Assembly: GCA_030445245.1 (NCBI GenBank)
Contig: JAUCSD010000001.1
Coordinates: 124,001-188,000, forward strand
Length of the DNA stretch: 64,000 nt
Direction: 5' to 3'
Source of the DNA: Candidatus Saccharimonadota bacterium
GTDB lineage: Bacteria > Patescibacteriota > Saccharimonadia > Saccharimonadales > Saccharimonadaceae
The notes below the pieces were generated by a model that saw only the letters and a program-made list of their open reading frames with translations, searched no databases and was not told where the DNA came from. Position numbers and translations under genes: made by a program. Shown piece by piece: positions 24,699 to 53,494 of this stretch (positions are counted from its first letter, which is position 1; each line of letters starts with the position of its first letter).

Positions 24699-24726
24699 TA
24701 AGACCCTAGCAAACGCTAGGGTCTTA
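24699..24726 (-). terminator. Bidirectional terminator at the left edge of the Ubl island
   Basis: TAAGACCCTAGC (24699-24710) pairs with GCTAGGGTCTTA (24715-24726), loop AAAC, flanked by A-runs and T-runs on both sides. Confidence 0.75.
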
Positions 24727-24806: not shown

Positions 24807-25520
24807 TCAGTTCTTGTCTTCGAGGACGATGGTCTGGAAGAACGGGACGGCCCCGAACATCTGATCCGTCTGAACCGGGACCTTCTCGCCACGACTCCAG
24901 GCGGCCAGGTAGGCCGCCATGTGAGCGCCGAGCGCGACCGCCGGGAAGACGATCGTGCGCGTCGTGCACTGAAGCGGCGCAGCCTTGTCGTCGTCGCGGA
25001 GCTGGTGCTCCTCGTACCAGTCGATGTGCGTCGGGTTGTACGGCTCGAACGACAGGAGGGTCATGAACTGGCTGCCGATGCGGCCGTCCAGGTAGAGCGG
25101 GACGTTCTCGTTCATCACGAGATGCTCCCAGATCTCCTGGCGCGCCTTCATGCTGTCGACGCCGCTGATGACGAGTCCCTTGAGGGGGACCTGTCCGGTG
25201 TAGTGCTCCTGGTGGATCTCGACGCTCTTGGCGCCGAACTCCAGCAGGTACTCACGCACCCGCTCCACCTTCGGCCGCAGGAGGTCCTGGGGCCGGAAGA
25301 TGAGGTTGGTGGTGACGTTGCGCGGCTCGATGAGGTCCTTGTCGAACAGGATGAACTTGGTGAAGCCCATCGTCGCCAGCGTCGGTAGGATGGAGGCACC
25401 GATGCCTCCACAGCCGATGATGGTGACGGTCTCGCTGACCTTGGCCGGATCGAAGATGCCGGTCTGGTCGGAGAAGTCCGCTTCGAACTCGAATCCCTCG
25501 GGAAGGGTCGATGTGGGCAT
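24807..25520 (-). CDS. ThiF/E1-like ubiquitin-activating enzyme
   Basis: 237 aa, AAAGG before ATG. Rossmann nucleotide motif GCGGIG (36-41), DKDLIEPRN (60-68; Asp at strand end and the ThiF/E1 'E-x-x-N' type motif), Lys84 in RPKVER, and GVDSMKAR with D122 form the adenylation site. C185 in LQCTTRTIVFPAVALGAH sits where E1 enzymes carry the cysteine that takes the Ubl thioester. E1 enzymes adenylate the C-terminal glycine of a ubiquitin-like protein. It follows the JAMM peptidase gene by 30 nt, and a Ubl and an E2-like gene lie upstream, so an E1 role is more likely than ThiF/MoeB cofactor synthesis: no thiamine or molybdopterin genes are near. Confidence 0.85.
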   Translation of the reverse strand: MPTSTLPEGFEFEADFSDQTGIFDPAKVSETVTIIGCGGIGASILPTLATMGFTKFILFDKDLIEPRNVTTNLIFRPQDLLRPKVERVREYLLEFGAKSVEIHQEHYTGQVPLKGLVISGVDSMKARQEIWEHLVMNENVPLYLDGRIGSQFMTLLSFEPYNPTHIDWYEEHQLRDDDKAAPLQCTTRTIVFPAVALGAHMAAYLAAWSRGEKVPVQTDQMFGAVPFFQTIVLEDKN

Positions 25521-25550
25521 GGCTGTGCCTTTCTGTGCGAAGGTGGCGTG

Positions 25551-26165
25551 CTACTTGGCGGTGGTACCGCTGATGACGACTTCGCCGCGTGGGCGCTTGC
25601 CGCCTCTGATGGTCTTGACCAGCCTTTCGACGTCCTCGCGGGCGCGTGCTTCCAGGCCGGCGTCCACCTCGCGGTAGAGCTGGATCTGCATCTCGACGCC
25701 GAAGCGCTCGGGACGGAACCTGTCGAACCGCGCGTGAAGATCACCGTCCCGGTTGGTAACCAGGCTGATGAACCACTCGCCGCCGGCGTTGCCGAAGTTC
25801 TCGATGTTGGTCATGTCGGTCGGACTGAAGTACGCGTCGCTGGGGTGGCTGTGCCACTGGAGCCTGAGCTCTGCGTCGCGCCCGCACTCGACGGCATGGT
25901 CGAGTGCGAGGGCGTAAGCCGAGCCGTTGACGTGCGCCGATCCGGCCGTAACGGTCTGCTGGGTGATGAACACGTCCTGCGCCGAAGCGACGAAGAACAC
26001 GTCCGAGCCGACCCTTCCGATGTAGCCGAACCCGTTGATCTCGGTGGTCACGGGCGTGTTGACGTACGTGGCGATCATGTCGAGCGCGCCCTGCGATAGC
26101 AGGAGCTTCGGCCTGATCAGACCGGGGGCATCCGGGGGACTTGCGAGCGTATGCAGAAGCTGCAT
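25551..26165 (-). CDS. JAB/JAMM metallopeptidase (deubiquitinase-like)
   Basis: 204 aa, GAGGAGGAG before ATG. The JAMM zinc site is readable: Glu42 in TEINGFG, then WHSHP with H105 and H107, and SPTD with S114 and D117. The H-to-S spacing is one residue shorter than the textbook HxHx7Sx2D. Family members cleave after the C-terminal glycine of ubiquitin-like proteins, either maturing the precursor or removing the modifier. First gene of a two-gene unit with E1; own promoter. Ends with a charged helix. Confidence 0.85.
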   Translation of the reverse strand: MQLLHTLASPPDAPGLIRPKLLLSQGALDMIATYVNTPVTTEINGFGYIGRVGSDVFFVASAQDVFITQQTVTAGSAHVNGSAYALALDHAVECGRDAELRLQWHSHPSDAYFSPTDMTNIENFGNAGGEWFISLVTNRDGDLHARFDRFRPERFGVEMQIQLYREVDAGLEARAREDVERLVKTIRGGKRPRGEVVISGTTAK

Positions 26166-26234
26166 GGCTCCTCCTCGTGTATGAGTGATGGGAAGGTTCT
26201 GTACCCCTTGAAAAACAGGGGGAAACCGTCGATT

Positions 26235-26263
26235 ATTATATCATAAAATAAAAAATAAAGCAA
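26235..26263 (-). promoter_or_regulatory. Promoter of the JAMM-E1 unit
   Basis: Minus strand TTGCTT (26258-26263), 17 bp, TATAAT (26235-26240). The leader forms a CCCCTTG/CAGGGG hairpin. Confidence 0.7.
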
Positions 26264-26264
26264 T

Positions 26265-26396
26265 TTAAATAGGCCGGAGTAAATCCGGCCTGCCCCGTAG
26301 GGCCTTTGTGATGTGTGGCGCCCCGGGCGCCGCTGCGAAGCCTAATAATAGCTTCTTGACATCGGCCAAATGGTGCCGGAGACGGGGTTGGGACAT
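26265..26396 (-). CDS. Candidate 43-aa ORF inside the Ubl island
   Basis: ATG 26396 has GGAGG 8 nt upstream. The product begins MSQPRLRHHLADVKKLLLGF and ends RGRPDLLRPI: basic, with a hydrophobic helix in the middle. The GGCCGGA/TCCGGCC hairpin (26271-26289) lies within its last codons, so this may instead be the trailer of the Ubl mRNA. It would be cotranscribed with the Ubl gene 92 nt upstream. Confidence 0.4.
   Translation of the reverse strand: MSQPRLRHHLADVKKLLLGFAAAPGAPHITKALRGRPDLLRPI
26271..26289 (-). terminator. Hairpin ending the Ubl transcript
   Basis: GGCCGGA pairs with TCCGGCC across a 5-nt loop; on the minus strand it runs into an AT-rich stretch (TATTTAAATTGC...). It overlaps the end of the candidate 43-aa frame. 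Confidence 0.5.
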
Positions 26397-26488
26397 ATTA
26401 ATGTCCTCCACCTGCTCAACGGACGTACCATTGACGTTTGTCAGTGCAGCGGCGCCACAGGGGCCACAGAGGAGCTACCGCGCGAGCG

Positions 26489-26722
26489 TCAGCCGTTGCG
26501 GACGGCGGGCCCGGCGGTCACCCGACGGGTGTCCGGCGTGACCGGGTCGCTCAGCTTCGCCGGCTTGGAGTCGACGACGGGGGTGAGGTACTCGACCATC
26601 GCCACCGGGTTCTCCAGGCCGAGGTGCTTGGCGGCCTCGACGAGCACGTCCTTGACGGTGTAGCCGTCCTTGACGTCGACGTCGAGCGAACCGGCGTTGC
26701 CGGCGATCGTGACCTTTGCCAT
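26489..26722 (-). CDS. Ubiquitin-like (beta-grasp) protein
   Basis: 77 aa from ATG 26722, with GGAGG 8 nt upstream; an in-frame extension overlaps the promoter and is rejected. Sequence order fits a beta-grasp fold: strand KVTIAGN, strand SLDVDVKDG, helix TVKDVLVEAAKHLGL, strands AMVEYLTPVV and KPAKLSDPVT. It ends GPAVRNG, so the mature C-terminus may be a single glycine rather than Gly-Gly. With E1, JAMM and E2-like genes beside it, it is the probable modifier. MoaD/ThiS-type sulfur carrier is the alternative, but those end in GG and no sulfur-pathway genes are near. Confidence 0.75.
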   Translation of the reverse strand: MAKVTIAGNAGSLDVDVKDGYTVKDVLVEAAKHLGLENPVAMVEYLTPVVDSKPAKLSDPVTPDTRRVTAGPAVRNG

Positions 26723-26807
26723 GACTCTGTCCTCCAGGGGATGTTTGGTCCGGCCTTGTTGCCGATACCCAATTAAAAACAACACACTCCCCTCGTGTGC
26801 TTGATCT

Positions 26808-26836
26808 AATATACTCCCCGTGTGGTTACATGTCAA
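26808..26836 (-). promoter_or_regulatory. Promoter of the Ubl gene
   Basis: Minus strand TTGACA (26831-26836), 17 bp, TATATT (26808-26813). Just downstream the leader carries CACAC/GTGTG with a 7-nt loop followed by TTGTTTTT, which looks like an intrinsic terminator inside the leader. Confidence 0.75.
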
Positions 26837-26879
26837 GGCACTTTATTGACTTTTTTAAAAATAAATTCGTTGCAGTGTG

Positions 26880-26916
26880 ACCCACGGTCCGCAGCATAGC
26901 GCTGCGGACCGTGGGT
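26880..26916 (-). terminator. 16-bp hairpin after the E2-like gene
   Basis: ACCCACGGTCCGCAGC (26880-26895) pairs perfectly with 26901-26916, loop 5 nt; T-rich sequence follows some 20-30 nt later on the minus strand. Confidence 0.7.
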
Positions 26917-26930
26917 TGTCACTGTGTCAG

Positions 26931-28388
26931 TCATACCAGATTGAAGTTCAGAAGCCCCGCCAGTCGACGCCGACGACGCGGGCGAACCGCCTCGACAGGA
27001 GGCGTCCACGTCGCGTCCATCGGAATCCTCTCGTAGTCGTACGAGATGCTGTACTGGTCCCCGCTGTTGATGCTGTTGAGCGAGTTGATGGCCATGTGCA
27101 CGAACTCGCCGAACTCCCCCTTGTGGAAGAGCTGGCGCAGTGCCTCGGCTCGGTTGCCGAAGCAGAACCAGTTGTACTGGGCGCTCCCGTAGGTTCTGCC
27201 CGGGTGGTAGTAGTAGCTTTGACCTCGCATCGGTGCCCGCGTCCGGTTGACGCGGATGACCGCTGCGGATGAGTCGTAGCTGTCGTACTCCACGAACATG
27301 AGCTCGTAGTCGCCCAGGTCGTAGCGCTCGCCGTCGTAGACGGTGGACGTACGCACGTGGATGGTCGGAACCTGCTTACCGTGGATGGTCGTGAACTGGA
27401 TGCCCATAACCCCTGTGAGCGACGTGATGTAGCGAAGCTGCTCGCGAGCAGCTTCCTCGTCGAACTCCTTTTGGCCGACGATCCGCTCCATCTCGGTGAG
27501 CTCGGAGCGCAGCCGTGTTAGCCTGAGGCTGCAGGAACGGATGGAATCCGCCTGCTCCTTTGCGTATCGGCTGTACTCGTTGATGCACGACTCTTGGGAC
27601 CGGATTGCCGCAAGGGTGTGCCGGTTGACCGAGATCTCGATGGTGCGAGCCAGCATCTTCTCCAGGCCGGAGGTGATGCCGGACCACGTCGGGTCGGTAG
27701 GCTGGGCGTCGGCATCGAACATTCTCTTAGCGACCCCGGTGGTGACGATCTGCTCGGCGACGGTGTCGATGAGCTCGGGTAGCCGGCCTTCTGTGAGCAA
27801 GCCGCGGATGCGATCCAGACCGTAAAAGGAGACTGTCCCGTAGGTGACGCCGTCACGGAACTCCGCGTTGGTGAAGCCGCGGCTCCACCTAGTGCTGGAA
27901 GGGTCGTCGGTCTGTGTGACCGGCAGCGTCTCGTGGTCCTTGGAGGGCAGGCCGACTAGCAGGTAGACCTCGAAGTCACCGACATAAGTCGGCTCCTCCT
28001 CGTCCTCCACCTCCGGCTTGAACAGACGGAGGTGAATGACCAGGCGGCCGCCGCTGTCGGCACGAATGCCGATAACGGACGGGTGCTCCATGAGCCCAAT
28101 GAGACCTTCGTCGAAGCGCGACAGATCGTCGAGCGACACGATGGTCTCATTGAGCTCGGTGAGTCGCTTGCGGGCGGCCGTGATGGTCGCTCGGTACGAA
28201 CGGGCGTTTTGGGCGCTCCGCCGCTTCTGGTACTCGAGCTCTTCGACATTGTCGCGAACTTGTCGCAGTCGGCTTTCCAGCCGAATCTGCGAGCCGTTTC
28301 GGACGAAATCGACGAACCCCTGCACGAGGTTAGCGGGCGTTCCGTGCCATGTAGGCATGGGCAGTGATTTCAACTCCGGCATCTCCAC
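26931..28388 (-). CDS. Coiled-coil protein with tandem E2-like domains
   Basis: 485 aa, AAGGAGTGGAG before ATG. It looks like an internal duplication. Each half has a coiled coil (about 35-85 and 250-315) followed by a beta-rich domain: first half VIGIRADSGG, VIHLR, YVGDFEVYLLV (about 105-145); second half VMGIQFTTIHG, TIHVR, DLGDYELMFVEY (about 327-369). The second half then has YYYHPGR (H395-P396) and NWFCFGN with C409, reminiscent of the HP...C(L/F)GN active-site region of E2 enzymes in prokaryotic Ubl operons. The first half has VSFYG with Ser187 where the Cys would be. Inference: one active and one inactive E2-like domain. Ends in a basic patch PRRRRR. Confidence 0.65.
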   Translation of the reverse strand: MEMPELKSLPMPTWHGTPANLVQGFVDFVRNGSQIRLESRLRQVRDNVEELEYQKRRSAQNARSYRATITAARKRLTELNETIVSLDDLSRFDEGLIGLMEHPSVIGIRADSGGRLVIHLRLFKPEVEDEEEPTYVGDFEVYLLVGLPSKDHETLPVTQTDDPSSTRWSRGFTNAEFRDGVTYGTVSFYGLDRIRGLLTEGRLPELIDTVAEQIVTTGVAKRMFDADAQPTDPTWSGITSGLEKMLARTIEISVNRHTLAAIRSQESCINEYSRYAKEQADSIRSCSLRLTRLRSELTEMERIVGQKEFDEEAAREQLRYITSLTGVMGIQFTTIHGKQVPTIHVRTSTVYDGERYDLGDYELMFVEYDSYDSSAAVIRVNRTRAPMRGQSYYYHPGRTYGSAQYNWFCFGNRAEALRQLFHKGEFGEFVHMAINSLNSINSGDQYSISYDYERIPMDATWTPPVEAVRPRRRRRLAGLLNFNLV

Positions 28389-28518: not shown

Positions 28519-28815
28519 TTAAGGCCAAAGTATGCCGGCTATAACCAAGACTTCCATGATGAGCCATAATATCCCGGTGAGTATGAGCGGCTTGTTGTGG
28601 TTATATAGGCCGTACACGAGCCACATAAGCGAAGCTACGGCATAGAGCACCCAGGTAAGGACGGATATGTAACCTTCGCCGGGGTGGCTGTAAATATCTA
28701 TGATTTGCGGAATCGTCATTAGCGGTTCAAAGATAGCAACAATAAGCATCGCCTGTTCGAGCGGTTTACTTTTTTGTTTGATCCACTTAAGTCGATGGTG
28801 ACTTTTACTAGGCAT
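28519..28815 (-). CDS. SemiSWEET/PQ-loop-like small membrane protein
   Basis: 98 aa, three membrane helices after a basic N-terminus. PLMTIPQIIDIY followed by SVLTWVLYAVASLMWLVYGLY matches the PQ-loop repeat of SemiSWEET sugar transporters (P-Q in helix 1, 'S..tW.l......W..YG' in helix 2). A paralogue lies at 49577-49939. A sugar or small-metabolite carrier acting as a dimer is likely; substrate unknown. Confidence 0.7.
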   Translation of the reverse strand: MPSKSHHRLKWIKQKSKPLEQAMLIVAIFEPLMTIPQIIDIYSHPGEGYISVLTWVLYAVASLMWLVYGLYNHNKPLILTGILWLIMEVLVIAGILWP

Positions 28816-29596: not shown

Positions 29597-30106
29597 ATGA
29601 CACGCCTACCGAATCCTGGCAGTGATAATGGTATATGGGGAGCGATACTCAATGACTTTCTTTCACAAACCCATAAAACGGACGGCACACTCAAGGACGA
29701 TATCATCACCGGTGCGGCAATTGCCGATGGCGCCGTCAGCGACGTTCATCTTGCTGCTGACGTTCAAACACAGCTCGACCAAATCGCCCTATTGCCTCTG
29801 TTGACCACCACCAGCCAGGCAAGTACTACCTATACGCTTGCACTTGCAGACGCTAATACCGTGGTCGAGACTACAAATACTAATCCCGTCACGGTAACCA
29901 TACCGCCGAACAGCTCTACGGCCTTTCCTGTAGGTACCACGATTGAGCTCTTCCAATATGGTACCGGTGCCCTGATCGTTGCTGCTGGCGTAGGAGTTAC
30001 GATTCGCTCCACGGATGGTCTACTCTCGGCTCGCACTCAATATTCGGCCTTGTCACTGCGCAAGCGGGGCACCAACGAATGGGTGCTCGCCGGGGACCTT
30101 GCATGA
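29597..30106 (+). CDS. Surface/tail-fibre-like protein with TRLPxPGSDNG start
   Basis: 169 aa. N-terminus TRLPNPGSDNGIWGAILNDFL...DGTLK is shared with the protein at 32360-32884. The rest is Thr/Val/Ala-rich and beta-type (LALADANTVVETT, VTVTIPPNSS, GTTIELFQYGTGALIV), as in phage fibre or appendage proteins. No signal peptide. It is coupled to the next gene through ATGA at 30103-30106. Likely an extracellular or virion-like adhesin part; export route unknown. Confidence 0.6.
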   Translation: MTRLPNPGSDNGIWGAILNDFLSQTHKTDGTLKDDIITGAAIADGAVSDVHLAADVQTQLDQIALLPLLTTTSQASTTYTLALADANTVVETTNTNPVTVTIPPNSSTAFPVGTTIELFQYGTGALIVAAGVGVTIRSTDGLLSARTQYSALSLRKRGTNEWVLAGDLA

Positions 30107-31641
30107 TAGGTTCGCATGCTGCACGCAGGACGGTTGTATCGCAATCGCGCCGGTCGCAGCTGGCGGCTAGCAAGCGCGCATCTCGTGGCAAAGTGGGTTA
30201 TATTGGTTCGCAGGCTATACTGACAGTGTTGCATAATAACGATTCGCTCCCGGTTGGATGGAACGCACACTGGGACACCGGCGCACTCATTGTTAATGGT
30301 AATAACGTCACAATCGACCATTACGAAATACACGGAGCGGTGGTATTTCAAGGTGACAATCCGACTATGACTCACTGCAAAGTGTTTAGTAACCCTGGTG
30401 ATTTTTTTGGTGTCACGGTAAGTGGTGCTGGTCACGGCGTTCTGAATATTAGTGACACGACAGTGGTCGGCAATGCCAGTAGTGGCGCGGCACAGGTAAA
30501 CGGCATATCTTCAGATTCGGGCTTGGTTGCCCGACGCTGTGATGTCTCGGGTACCGGTGACGGAATACATATGGTATCGCAAGCTAGTCCGGCTGACGCC
30601 ATAATATCTCAATGCTACGTACATGATCAGGCATTTGTAGATGAAGCTCAGCATTGTGACGGTATTCAGATTTTTAACAATCCCGGCGCTGCCAGCTTTT
30701 TCAAAATCGAGCACTGTTACATCGGCCTTACATTATCGACTATTGGTACACCTCTGAACTCGGCAATGACCTGCGGGACGCCAACGGCAGACACTACACC
30801 GCTAGCAGCGGCAACTATTGATAACAATTATTTTGAATCAGGCCTATTCCATCTCCGAGTAAATTTCCGTTTGCACAACACTACTATTACGAACAATGGC
30901 ACAGGCCCGCAGCTTAGCGGTGAATTTGGCACATGGGATATGGAGACGCCAGTTGCTGCCTGGACGAATAATAAGAACTCCAATGGTACTACCGCCGCCA
31001 ATCCGTTCCCGCTCACGCCACCAACGATAAAAGAATCGTTGCAAACCACCAATAGCAATACTACTGGCCAGACGCTTTCAACGACGACGGGTACTACTAC
31101 TGCCGGCGATACGCTGTTGATTGTATTTGCTACCGACAATAATACTGCCGCCGACCCAACCAGTACTGCTGGCATGCTGACGCAGATTGGTACTACCGTC
31201 GTTGATGGTAACAACAGCGGCGTTTTGCGGATGTACACGGTGCCAGTTACCACTAGTGGCAGCAAGGACATTGTCATACCAGCAGCTGGCGGATTTGACG
31301 TGTATGGCGCCGTTATGGTGATTGGCGGCCCGATTGAAGTTGAGGGCTTTGCCTCCATGAACTTTCCGTCATCCAACACGACTTTCGCTACGCCAGCTAC
31401 TTCATTCGCCGGTGGTAAGGATCTGCTAGTGGCTACAATGATTACGCAACAGGGTGCCATATTCGATCTGACGGGCTCAGGTCTCACGCAGCGGGCAAGC
31501 CCTAACGCGCCACCATTTAGTTCCATGGTGGTCGGCACAGCGGCGCTAAATGGGCCTGGCGTCACGCCAACCTATACATTTACTACAACTAACGCTGCAA
31601 AGCCTGGTATTGGGATATTTGGATTACAGCGCCTCGGATAG
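30103..31641 (+). CDS. Right-handed beta-helix surface protein
   Basis: 512 aa from ATG 30103, coupled to the gene before (ATGA). Basic N-terminus (HAARRTVVSQSRRSQLAASKR), then repeating short beta strands typical of pectate-lyase-like parallel beta-helices (VTIDHYEIHGAVVFQGDNPTM..., GISSDSGLVARRCDVSGTGDG, DGIQIFNN). The last about 200 residues form a Thr/Ser/Gly-rich beta-sandwich-like region (TTTAGDTLLIVFATDNN) resembling the protein at 31681-32358. Such folds bind or degrade polysaccharide. Substrate unknown; perhaps host-cell recognition. Confidence 0.65.
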   Translation: MIGSHAARRTVVSQSRRSQLAASKRASRGKVGYIGSQAILTVLHNNDSLPVGWNAHWDTGALIVNGNNVTIDHYEIHGAVVFQGDNPTMTHCKVFSNPGDFFGVTVSGAGHGVLNISDTTVVGNASSGAAQVNGISSDSGLVARRCDVSGTGDGIHMVSQASPADAIISQCYVHDQAFVDEAQHCDGIQIFNNPGAASFFKIEHCYIGLTLSTIGTPLNSAMTCGTPTADTTPLAAATIDNNYFESGLFHLRVNFRLHNTTITNNGTGPQLSGEFGTWDMETPVAAWTNNKNSNGTTAANPFPLTPPTIKESLQTTNSNTTGQTLSTTTGTTTAGDTLLIVFATDNNTAADPTSTAGMLTQIGTTVVDGNNSGVLRMYTVPVTTSGSKDIVIPAAGGFDVYGAVMVIGGPIEVEGFASMNFPSSNTTFATPATSFAGGKDLLVATMITQQGAIFDLTGSGLTQRASPNAPPFSSMVVGTAALNGPGVTPTYTFTTTNAAKPGIGIFGLQRLG

Positions 31642-31680
31642 GATGCTGATCAGTAGTATTTCCAGAAATTTTACTATACC

Positions 31681-32358
31681 CTACTCAAAAAAAGTCATGA
31701 ATGCGCCTGGTGATGGTAAAACCTGCGCTTGCAGTTCGATACCCGTCATTACCCACGCCTGAGTGCTAGGAGTAGACATACCGATTGTTTGACTCCCGGC
31801 GACCGCGGCGTTTTGATATGCGTAATAGTGCACACTACTCACGCTAGTATGGCCATCTGCTATGCCATCTTCCGTCGCACCCGATACGTAGACGCGACCG
31901 GTTGGATCGCGGCTATTCTCATCCATGCTCGCCCAAGTGACGATTGAATTGGCAGCCGTTGTCGTAACGGTAGCGGATGGAGCTCCGCTACCGTTACCAG
32001 GACTGCTAGTAGCTGGTGTGCCGGCAAGTTGAACACCCGTCCAGCGCTCAACAACCATCGAGTGATAACAGTTACCGGCGGGTGCAGAAAGTGTAACGAC
32101 CATTGAACCGGGTAGTCCTAATACGACAGATGTAAAAATAGTTGCATACCCATTGAAACCGCCTGGAGCGACGATCGATCGTCGCGTGTATGTCTGCCCT
32201 CCCCCGCTCGGCGTACCAGCGGGCGTACCCGTATCCCAGGTGACTGCCTTTATCACGAGTACTTCACCAGTAGCGGGCGTAAAAGATGGTGTGCTTAGCG
32301 TACTGGTGTCTCCAGCAACAGAAGATTGTAGGAAGTAGCTCGTCACGAGTGTGGGCAT
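31681..32358 (-). CDS. Beta-sandwich surface protein
   Basis: 225 aa, Thr/Ser/Gly-rich. Pattern TLSTPSFTPATGEVLVIKAVTWD, then VVLGLPGSMVVTLSAP and SMVVERWTGVQLAGTP resembles the C-terminal domain of the beta-helix protein on the other strand. It starts 1 nt after the stop of the gene at 32360-32884, so the two form a unit. No signal peptide or membrane anchor visible. Confidence 0.6.
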   Translation of the reverse strand: MPTLVTSYFLQSSVAGDTSTLSTPSFTPATGEVLVIKAVTWDTGTPAGTPSGGGQTYTRRSIVAPGGFNGYATIFTSVVLGLPGSMVVTLSAPAGNCYHSMVVERWTGVQLAGTPATSSPGNGSGAPSATVTTTAANSIVTWASMDENSRDPTGRVYVSGATEDGIADGHTSVSSVHYYAYQNAAVAGSQTIGMSTPSTQAWVMTGIELQAQVLPSPGAFMTFFE

Positions 32359-52762: not shown

Positions 52763-53494
52763 TCATTTTTCGTTTATGGCGAGCTCTAGCATCTGTGCGG
52801 CATATTTTCTTGCACTCACATCACCTTGTTGATTGTATTTTACAATATTTATAATATCTTCGATAGTTCTCTCAGGAGTTTGAATGTTATTTTCAACCCA
52901 GGAAATGTTAACGTGTGGCTTGTCTTCAAGCGCCCACCGTAGACAAATTATGGCCTCTTCGATTCGTTTGGTGCGTTCCGCACTATTTTCTGGGTAGCGT
53001 TTGTTCAGCCATAGTCTCCATACTTCAGGTCGAGCGACAAGGCAGACCGTGTGTGAAGCGGCAAACGGTAGTTTTGCACGTGGTTCGACAGCACCAGACA
53101 GTGTTGCGAGAAGATTATATGGGGCATTGTAGTCGCCGGCTACTGTGCCGTATATGCGTCCTGTCGTTGGATGAACCGTATATTGGATGAGCGTTTTCTG
53201 GTCGATGGCGTCGAAAATTTCAGCAAGTGATTCATCAGTATGGGGTTGAGTACGAAACAGCTCCGGATCTTCACCAGCGCGTGAATCACGTGTAGTAAAG
53301 ACAGGGACGGGCTTGAATTCAGGATCAGTGCGGATGATCTGGTCTATAACAAAACTTTTCCCAATTGCCACAGGACCAACCAGCATAACAAGGACTTTAT
53401 CGTGAAGTGAACGGGCTACATCTTCTGACGGCAGGTAGGTCGTTTCAGTTGCTTGTATCTCACCGAGCTTCTTTTTGGTCTCGTTGCTAAGCAT
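52763..53494 (-). CDS. Guanylate-kinase-like P-loop protein
   Basis: 243 aa. P-loop GPVAIGKSFVIDQI near residues 39-52, TTRDSRAGE (guanylate-kinase-type GMP-binding TTR), and GRIYGTVAGDY. Compared with Gmk it lacks the usual compact lid and has extra helices at the C-terminus. May phosphorylate a nucleotide; exact substrate unclear. Confidence 0.7.
   Translation of the reverse strand: MLSNETKKKLGEIQATETTYLPSEDVARSLHDKVLVMLVGPVAIGKSFVIDQIIRTDPEFKPVPVFTTRDSRAGEDPELFRTQPHTDESLAEIFDAIDQKTLIQYTVHPTTGRIYGTVAGDYNAPYNLLATLSGAVEPRAKLPFAASHTVCLVARPEVWRLWLNKRYPENSAERTKRIEEAIICLRWALEDKPHVNISWVENNIQTPERTIEDIINIVKYNQQGDVSARKYAAQMLELAINEK

Follow-up and report, generated by a model that had tools for sequence, protein, structure and literature searches.

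Do four neighbouring genes of a Saccharibacterium make up a complete ubiquitin-like conjugation system, with its own activating enzyme (E1), conjugating enzyme (E2), JAMM peptidase and ubiquitin-like modifier (Ubl)? The question is raised by a locus in what I will call the window, a stretch of 64,000 nucleotides comprising bases 124001-188000 of a single-contig genome (1.16 Mb, 99.45% complete). A prediction made earlier from this DNA had placed such an island there, and its positions and open reading frames (ORFs) are correct: according to the ORF list, the minus strand carries a gene for a large E2-like protein (26931..28388, 485 amino acids), the Ubl gene (26489..26722, 77 amino acids), the JAB/JAMM gene (25551..26165, 204 amino acids) and the E1/ThiF-type gene (24807..25520, 237 amino acids). 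The answer I reach is that these genes probably constitute a self-contained cassette for ubiquitin-like protein conjugation. A complete conjugation set is the best reading because the four components co-occur and none of the residues predicted to be catalytic varies, and on the same two grounds the original prediction is supported. The components and their motifs, the Asn-Gly ending of the modifier, and the co-occurrence and patchiness of the genes can all be read from the sequences.

The first matter to settle is whether the four genes belong together. The E2-like protein of the window has seven relatives among 150 related genomes, and the neighbourhoods of those seven contain an E1 and a Ubl gene in every case and a JAB gene in all but one. 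A profile built from seven E1 sequences matches 17 of the 393 genomes of the order (12 of 156 genera), and a separate search of that set with an E2-domain profile picks out the same 17 genomes plus one weak fragment interrupted by three stops. Since both profiles were seeded partly from the genomes searched, the informative part of this result is the absence of intact genomes with E1 only or E2 only. The agreement of the two profiles goes beyond chance.

The arrangement of the genes is less uniform. Most relatives have compact operons in the order E2-JAB-E1-Ubl. The window and genome G015 share another layout, in which the E2-like gene and the Ubl gene are followed by JAB-E1, and in the E1 tree the same two group together (support 99/91), with G197, which belongs to a different family, joining them next (97/89). 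Two Saccharibacterial cassettes (L014 and L057) have no recognisable JAB gene. One might argue from the order and spacing in the window, with its long gaps, so unlike those of most relatives, that this is a chance neighbourhood or the decaying remnant of unrelated genes. That argument is contradicted by conservation: E1 and E2 occur in the same genomes, the frames are open and free of stops, the motifs are invariant, and the very arrangement of the window recurs in G015. I regard a chance assembly as most improbable.

A search for a constant fifth partner gene beside the cassettes, e.g., one encoding an E3, came up empty. Those carriers that have names are mostly filed as Candidatus Saccharibacteria or as metagenome-assembled genomes of Saccharimonadia, which makes the assignment of the host sound. 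Within Saccharibacteria the cassette appears as an accessory trait that moves horizontally and is patchily distributed. One genome (L056, G311) has two adjacent cassettes, one of which encodes a fused double E1 (432 amino acids) that has lost the cysteine region from its first half, together with a Ubl that bears a long N-terminal extension rich in Ala and Glu.

What, then, are the individual components? The E1-like protein displays the hallmarks of the ThiF superfamily: the GxGGxG motif (here GCGGIG), the catalytic Asp, Arg and Lys, and a cysteine in the crossover loop. It matches the Pfam ThiF model above its cut-off (1.1e-17), and the family profile matches UBA7, UBA3, yeast Uba1 and ThiF. 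Residues N68, K84, D122, R127, R147 and C185 are kept in all 26 aligned sequences, and C185 aligns with the catalytic cysteine of ThiF in every row, phage relatives included. The nucleotide-binding motif, D122 and the candidate Cys185 that had been pointed out are therefore all present and conserved, and the protein is, by its motifs, a minimal ThiF-type adenylating enzyme. The same genome has a second ThiF-domain gene (about 415 amino acids; G000:C1 743908-744336, L018), unrelated to the cassette, adjoining a gene of 486 amino acids that may encode a CoA ligase.

The peptidase is equally well conserved. Its metal site, consisting of E, H-x-H, S and D (E42, H105, H107, S114 and D117), is kept in 22 of 22 sequences; the four residues originally named (E42, H105, H107 and D117) are among the five. 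The spacing between H107 and S114 is one residue shorter in the window than in most relatives. The JAMM profile matches Rpn11 best (9e-8), followed by archaeal JAMM1 (2e-7) and the Rpn11 homologue of Caldiarchaeum (1e-6); the window protein taken alone falls below the cut-off of the Pfam Prok-JAB model.

The Ubl of the window ends in VRNG. All 22 Saccharibacterial Ubls have the Asn-Gly ending, three of them with one extra residue (Cys, Arg or Gln), and in an alignment of the first eight, G20, N76 and G77 are the sole invariant positions. The AlphaFold model, made from an alignment of 11 sequences, has a predicted local distance difference test score (pLDDT) of 87, the beta-grasp strand order (beta-beta-alpha-beta-beta) and a flexible, disordered tail with the C-terminal Gly. 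The earlier description of a 77-residue beta-grasp protein ending in a single glycine thus holds for length and predicted fold, while the conserved feature is not a lone Gly but the Asn-Gly pair. All three Ubls with an extra residue have a JAB gene in their cassette, and in both cassettes without JAB the Ubl ends exactly in NG, a pattern that, in its small numbers, fits trimming by the JAMM peptidase.

Does the fold tell us what the protein does? Comparison with PDB entries brings up MoaD, TtuB, SAMP1, ubiquitin and NEDD8 (template modelling score about 0.5-0.69, E-values greater than 0.001), and the best profile matches are PF1061 (9e-7, aligned to the final residue) and SAMP2 (1.4e-6). The fold alone cannot separate a sulfur carrier from a protein modifier, because the superfamily holds both. 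One may therefore picture a system in which the E1 activates the Ubl, which as a thiocarboxylate delivers sulfur for the thiolation of a tRNA or for a small molecule, the JAMM peptidase opens a precursor as in pathways of the QbsD/CysO-Mec type, and the supposed E2 serves as scaffold or sulfur acceptor. The resemblance of the Ubl, in profile and fold, to SAMP2, MoaD, TtuB and ThiS agrees with such a scheme, as does the minimal ThiF type of the E1. SAMP2 itself plays both parts, modifier as well as sulfur carrier, so the match to it does not decide between the readings. What tells against the scheme is that a search of the whole genome for ThiS, ThiG and MoaE gave no match when positive controls did, which makes sulfur-carrier pathways unlikely and led to the rejection of a thiamine or molybdopterin role. 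Moreover, the cassettes have no recurring neighbour for a rhodanese, a synthase or a biosynthetic enzyme, and the E2-like protein with its invariant cysteine always accompanies them. The original prediction was to be given up on a ThiS/MoaD match linked to thiamine or molybdopterin genes; the likeness to ThiS, MoaD and SAMP2 was found and the genes were not. I consider a sulfur carrier unlikely and conjugation the better reading.

For the E2 the evidence is most delicate. The large protein appears to be built of an N-terminal coiled coil, a degenerate E2-like region (about 95-220), a second coiled coil (242-306) and an E2-like domain of catalytic type (311-460). Within the last of these, Cys409 lies in a WFCFG motif and is kept in 25 of 25 sequences, with G359 and G411 also conserved, so the catalytic cysteine expected of the E2/UBC family after an HP-type motif has its counterpart. 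The motif around the Cys takes the form YPxY...FCFG in Saccharibacteria and HPHV..G..CLGN, or something similar, in members from phages and from more distant Patescibacteria. For the full-length protein the AlphaFold model, from eight sequences, is of middling quality (mean pLDDT 64), and the C-terminal domain mostly reaches 80-89, except for the loop preceding the Cys. The predicted topology of that domain (helix, four strands, Cys-bearing loop, helices) agrees with the E2 fold. The best PDB fold matches of the model are UEV domains of TSG101 (E-value 0.066, probability 0.80), and a 13-sequence profile of the domain, run against the whole PDB, finds only UBE2L3 entries (E-value 0.68), with an alignment that ends at the region of the active-site Cys. 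Placement in the E2 superfamily is favoured because several matches, none of them significant, point to that one superfamily. As far as structure prediction and these UEV and UBE2L3 profile and fold matches tell, the 485-residue protein does contain an E2/UEV-like domain, so that the E2/RWD-like fold on which the original prediction depended appears to be present.

Several observations weigh against a conjugation system, most of them at this point. No family model, PDB profile or fold search gave a significant single match of the E2 domain to a known E2 family. A 15-sequence profile ranks a ribosomal protein first (E-value 0.15) and UBE2L3 at 0.36. Saccharibacteria have only a degenerate form of the HPN-type motif (YPxY; HPG in the window protein). 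In addition, the E1 is without a separate Cys domain, and in fold the Ubl comes no nearer to ubiquitin than to sulfur carriers. The evidence for a putative E2/UEV-like C-terminal domain is convergent and individually weak, and this is the least secure of the four components.

The first half of the protein, to judge from the model, looks like a degenerate E2-like copy. An internal BLAST match (3e-4) may be inflated by the coiled coil, and the E2 profile applied to the N-terminal half is weak for G015 (0.002) and gives nothing for the window protein (1.9). A clear second E2 domain without Cys is found in G003 (E2 profile 1.9e-13). The N-termini of the window protein (26931-28388) and of a protein at L011 8233-9660 share an identical PTWHGTPANL; their overall identity is only about 29%.

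Hydropathy estimates predict one or more transmembrane stretches before the E2 domain in 14 of 21 Saccharibacterial E2-like proteins. This opens the way to a different view of the target, conjugation to membrane lipids or membrane proteins after the manner of Atg8, with N-terminal helices fixing the E2 at the membrane and the soluble tandem form of the window derived from it. Atg8 and Atg12 carry a single C-terminal Gly preceded by a residue other than Gly, and the Ubl ending is of this kind as well. The window protein and six others are predicted to have no such stretches, however, and no lipid-specific feature was found; I rate the Atg8-like view as quite unlikely.

How might the cassette work, if it is indeed for conjugation? 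Each reaction step that follows is inferred, and so are the target and the direction in which the Ubl would be handed on. Where an extra residue is present, the JAMM peptidase would trim the Ubl precursor to its C-terminal Asn-Gly; the Ubl of the window, encoded already mature, would not need trimming. The minimal E1 would adenylate the terminal Gly and load the Ubl onto Cys185, from which it would pass to Cys409 of the E2-like protein and then to an amine or other nucleophile of the target, with no need of a dedicated E3. The JAMM peptidase could also take the Ubl off again. In the window genome and its nearest relative, the degenerate second E2-like domain, fused by a coiled coil, may serve as a UEV cofactor or in target recognition.

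As to its use, a proteasomal route of degradation is unlikely because no proteasome-family protein was found in the genome. Antiphage defence may reasonably be taken as a first hypothesis, given the patchy distribution and the analogy with known systems. Among physiological uses, a role in conflict (against phages or mobile elements) seems the likeliest, though I would put it forward only tentatively; modification of host-contact proteins, which the original prediction also suggested, would be another possible role. Bolder, and rather improbable, is the idea of a distinct bacterial lineage of ubiquitination, shared with large phages, whose modifier would end in Asn-Gly and whose E2 would in most species sit anchored in the membrane, or elsewhere be fused to a UEV-like pseudo-E2 of its own, and which would modify membrane or surface components of epibionts or build Ubl chains within one polypeptide.

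Is the family confined to Saccharibacteria? It has distant relatives in other parts of the phylum and in large phages. E1, JAB and Ubl are present on three IMG/VR contigs (172 kb, 156 kb and one short), one of which also has a recognisable E2. In crAss001 (gp76-gp78), Dulem virus 41 and Flavobacterium phage Fpv, an E1 (profile matches of 1e-39 to 1e-41) lies beside a JAB-domain protein (1e-10 to 1e-12), with an adjoining gene that has a motif like HSHV/HSHL..C.G. A Xanthomonas jumbo phage has an E1 together with an E2-like motif and a candidate Ubl that ends in SGG. In all these named phages the putative E2 and Ubl are read from motif and gene order, not from profile matches. The modules of the first three phages are like the cassette in having E1 next to JAB and a gene with a Cys motif, and unlike it in being very diverged. 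The E1 tree gives no direction of transfer between viruses and bacteria. Searches of plasmids and phages by tblastn with the E2-like protein of the window, and of IMG/VR with single window proteins, gave zero matches, and a search of a viral fold library gave nothing interpretable. Plasmid matches to E1 were generic ThiF, the one inspected being an ordinary thiamine operon. Further observations concern these distant members. In the crAss-like and Flavobacterium phages L070 (crAss001 gp75-gp79), L069 and L068, the E1-JAB pairs are annotated as thiamine biosynthesis and metalloprotease. They lie near genes for primase and uracil-DNA glycosylase, with E2-like and Ubl-like candidates upstream. A distant Patescibacterial Ubl candidate of 203 amino acids (L060:4384-4995) has a CxxC-bearing tail of 22 residues past PNG, possibly an extension that JAMM removes.

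How did the genes come to lie where they do in the window? Base composition sets them apart: their GC content at third codon positions is 0.82-0.95, as compared to a mean of 0.46 (standard deviation 0.09) for the 55 other ORFs of the window. The island is thus GC-rich, as had been noted, and it was probably acquired, a conclusion supported by composition and not by the bordering tRNA-Glu to which the original prediction also appealed. The tRNA gene makes weak evidence of integration, because it is about 300 bp away, no att-like direct repeats were found flanking the island, and the tRNA is absent at that place in six orthologous kinase neighbourhoods; integration at the tRNA finds no support.

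The claim that the genes have three promoters and do not form one operon stands in part. Upstream of the Ubl gene is a promoter-like site near consensus (26808..26836, minus strand; TTGACA-17-TATATT, 11 of 12 positions, a sequence match only), and the other two proposed promoters look weak on inspection or in a scan. Long gaps bearing hairpins do set the E2-like and Ubl genes apart. The gap between these two contains a perfect 16-bp inverted repeat (26880..26916, minus strand), possibly a terminator, lacking a clean T run, and a terminator-like hairpin follows the Ubl gene on its 3' side (26271..26291, minus strand). Just 30 bp separate the JAB and E1 genes, which leaves no more than three transcription units here (E2-like, Ubl and JAB-E1), the last followed 3' of E1 by a terminator-like hairpin with a T run (24699..24726, minus strand).

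Directly upstream of the island is an ORF for a SemiSWEET-like transporter (28519-28815; NCBIfam 1.3e-16, below cut-off). Beside the island, a 169-residue ORF (29597-30106) matches phrog_8780, a family of phage minor tail proteins (2.5e-27), and is followed by a repeat-rich, tail-spike-like ORF of 520 amino acids (30079-32358). Farther off, 53180-53377 has a weak tblastn match (3e-4) to a relative's JAB protein and may be a RadC-type or other JAB-fold gene.

It remains to compare the cassette with systems already known. Models from Pfam, NCBIfam, PADLOC and PHROGs gave ThiF-type matches for the E1 only and nothing useful for the E2 and Ubl. The archaeal SAMP2/UbaA/JAMM1 system is similar in its minimal E1 and in the likeness of the Ubl profile to SAMP2 and of the JAMM profile to JAMM1. 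The cassette differs in always having an E2-like protein (SAMP systems are not known to have an E2) and in an Asn-Gly rather than a Gly-Gly ending. Type II CBASS, through Cap2 and Cap3, also uses Ubl-like transfer chemistry with E1, E2 and JAB; the cassette does not belong there, as no E1-E2 fusion, adjacent CD-NTase or recurring partner was seen.

Closer comparisons are found in the five operon types (6a-6e) with E1, JAB, E2-like and Ubl proteins that Iyer, Burroughs and Aravind described in 2006 from scattered bacteria (PMC1779556). Type 6d is likewise a sporadic operon of E1-like protein, JAB, Cys-bearing E2-like protein and a small Ubl whose C-terminal Gly is conserved, but it is distinguished by a JAB-N domain, by an additional alpha-helical protein and by an E2 with a His farther downstream (PMC1779556). 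The JAB of the cassette, in contrast, is a plain domain of about 200 amino acids, the Ubl ends in Asn-Gly, and there is no constant fifth gene. Membership in PRTRC/type 6d was rejected (PRTRC_ThiF scored 25 bits against a cut-off of 145; other PRTRC models gave no match). The Bil system (BilABCD) resembles the cassette in its four genes for Ubl, E2, JAB and E1. BilA, however, has two Ubl domains, BilD an inactive and an active adenylation domain and a Cys domain, and BilB a CEHH motif (PMC11354881), whereas the cassette has a single Ubl domain and a minimal E1 of 237 amino acids. Models of BilA, BilB and BilC gave no match and that of BilD only a partial one (2.5e-7 over 104 residues), so membership in Bil was rejected as well.

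The family thus appears as previously unnamed: a literature search, which left subscription papers and preprints out of its scope and so cannot certify priority, found no description of it in Saccharibacteria or crAss-like phages. Complete sets of E1, E2, Ubl and protease are known mainly from the antiphage systems of bacteria with larger genomes. That a separate, patchy version with an invariant Asn-Gly tail exists in genomes as small as about 1 Mb, and has E1/JAB relatives in large phages (crAss-like ones included), broadens the evolutionary footing of ubiquitin-type chemistry. It also offers a minimal set of four proteins open to reconstitution in vitro. The cassette is best read as a variant, with an Asn-Gly tag ending, of the bacterial E1/E2/JAB/Ubl conjugation systems that have been catalogued since 2006.

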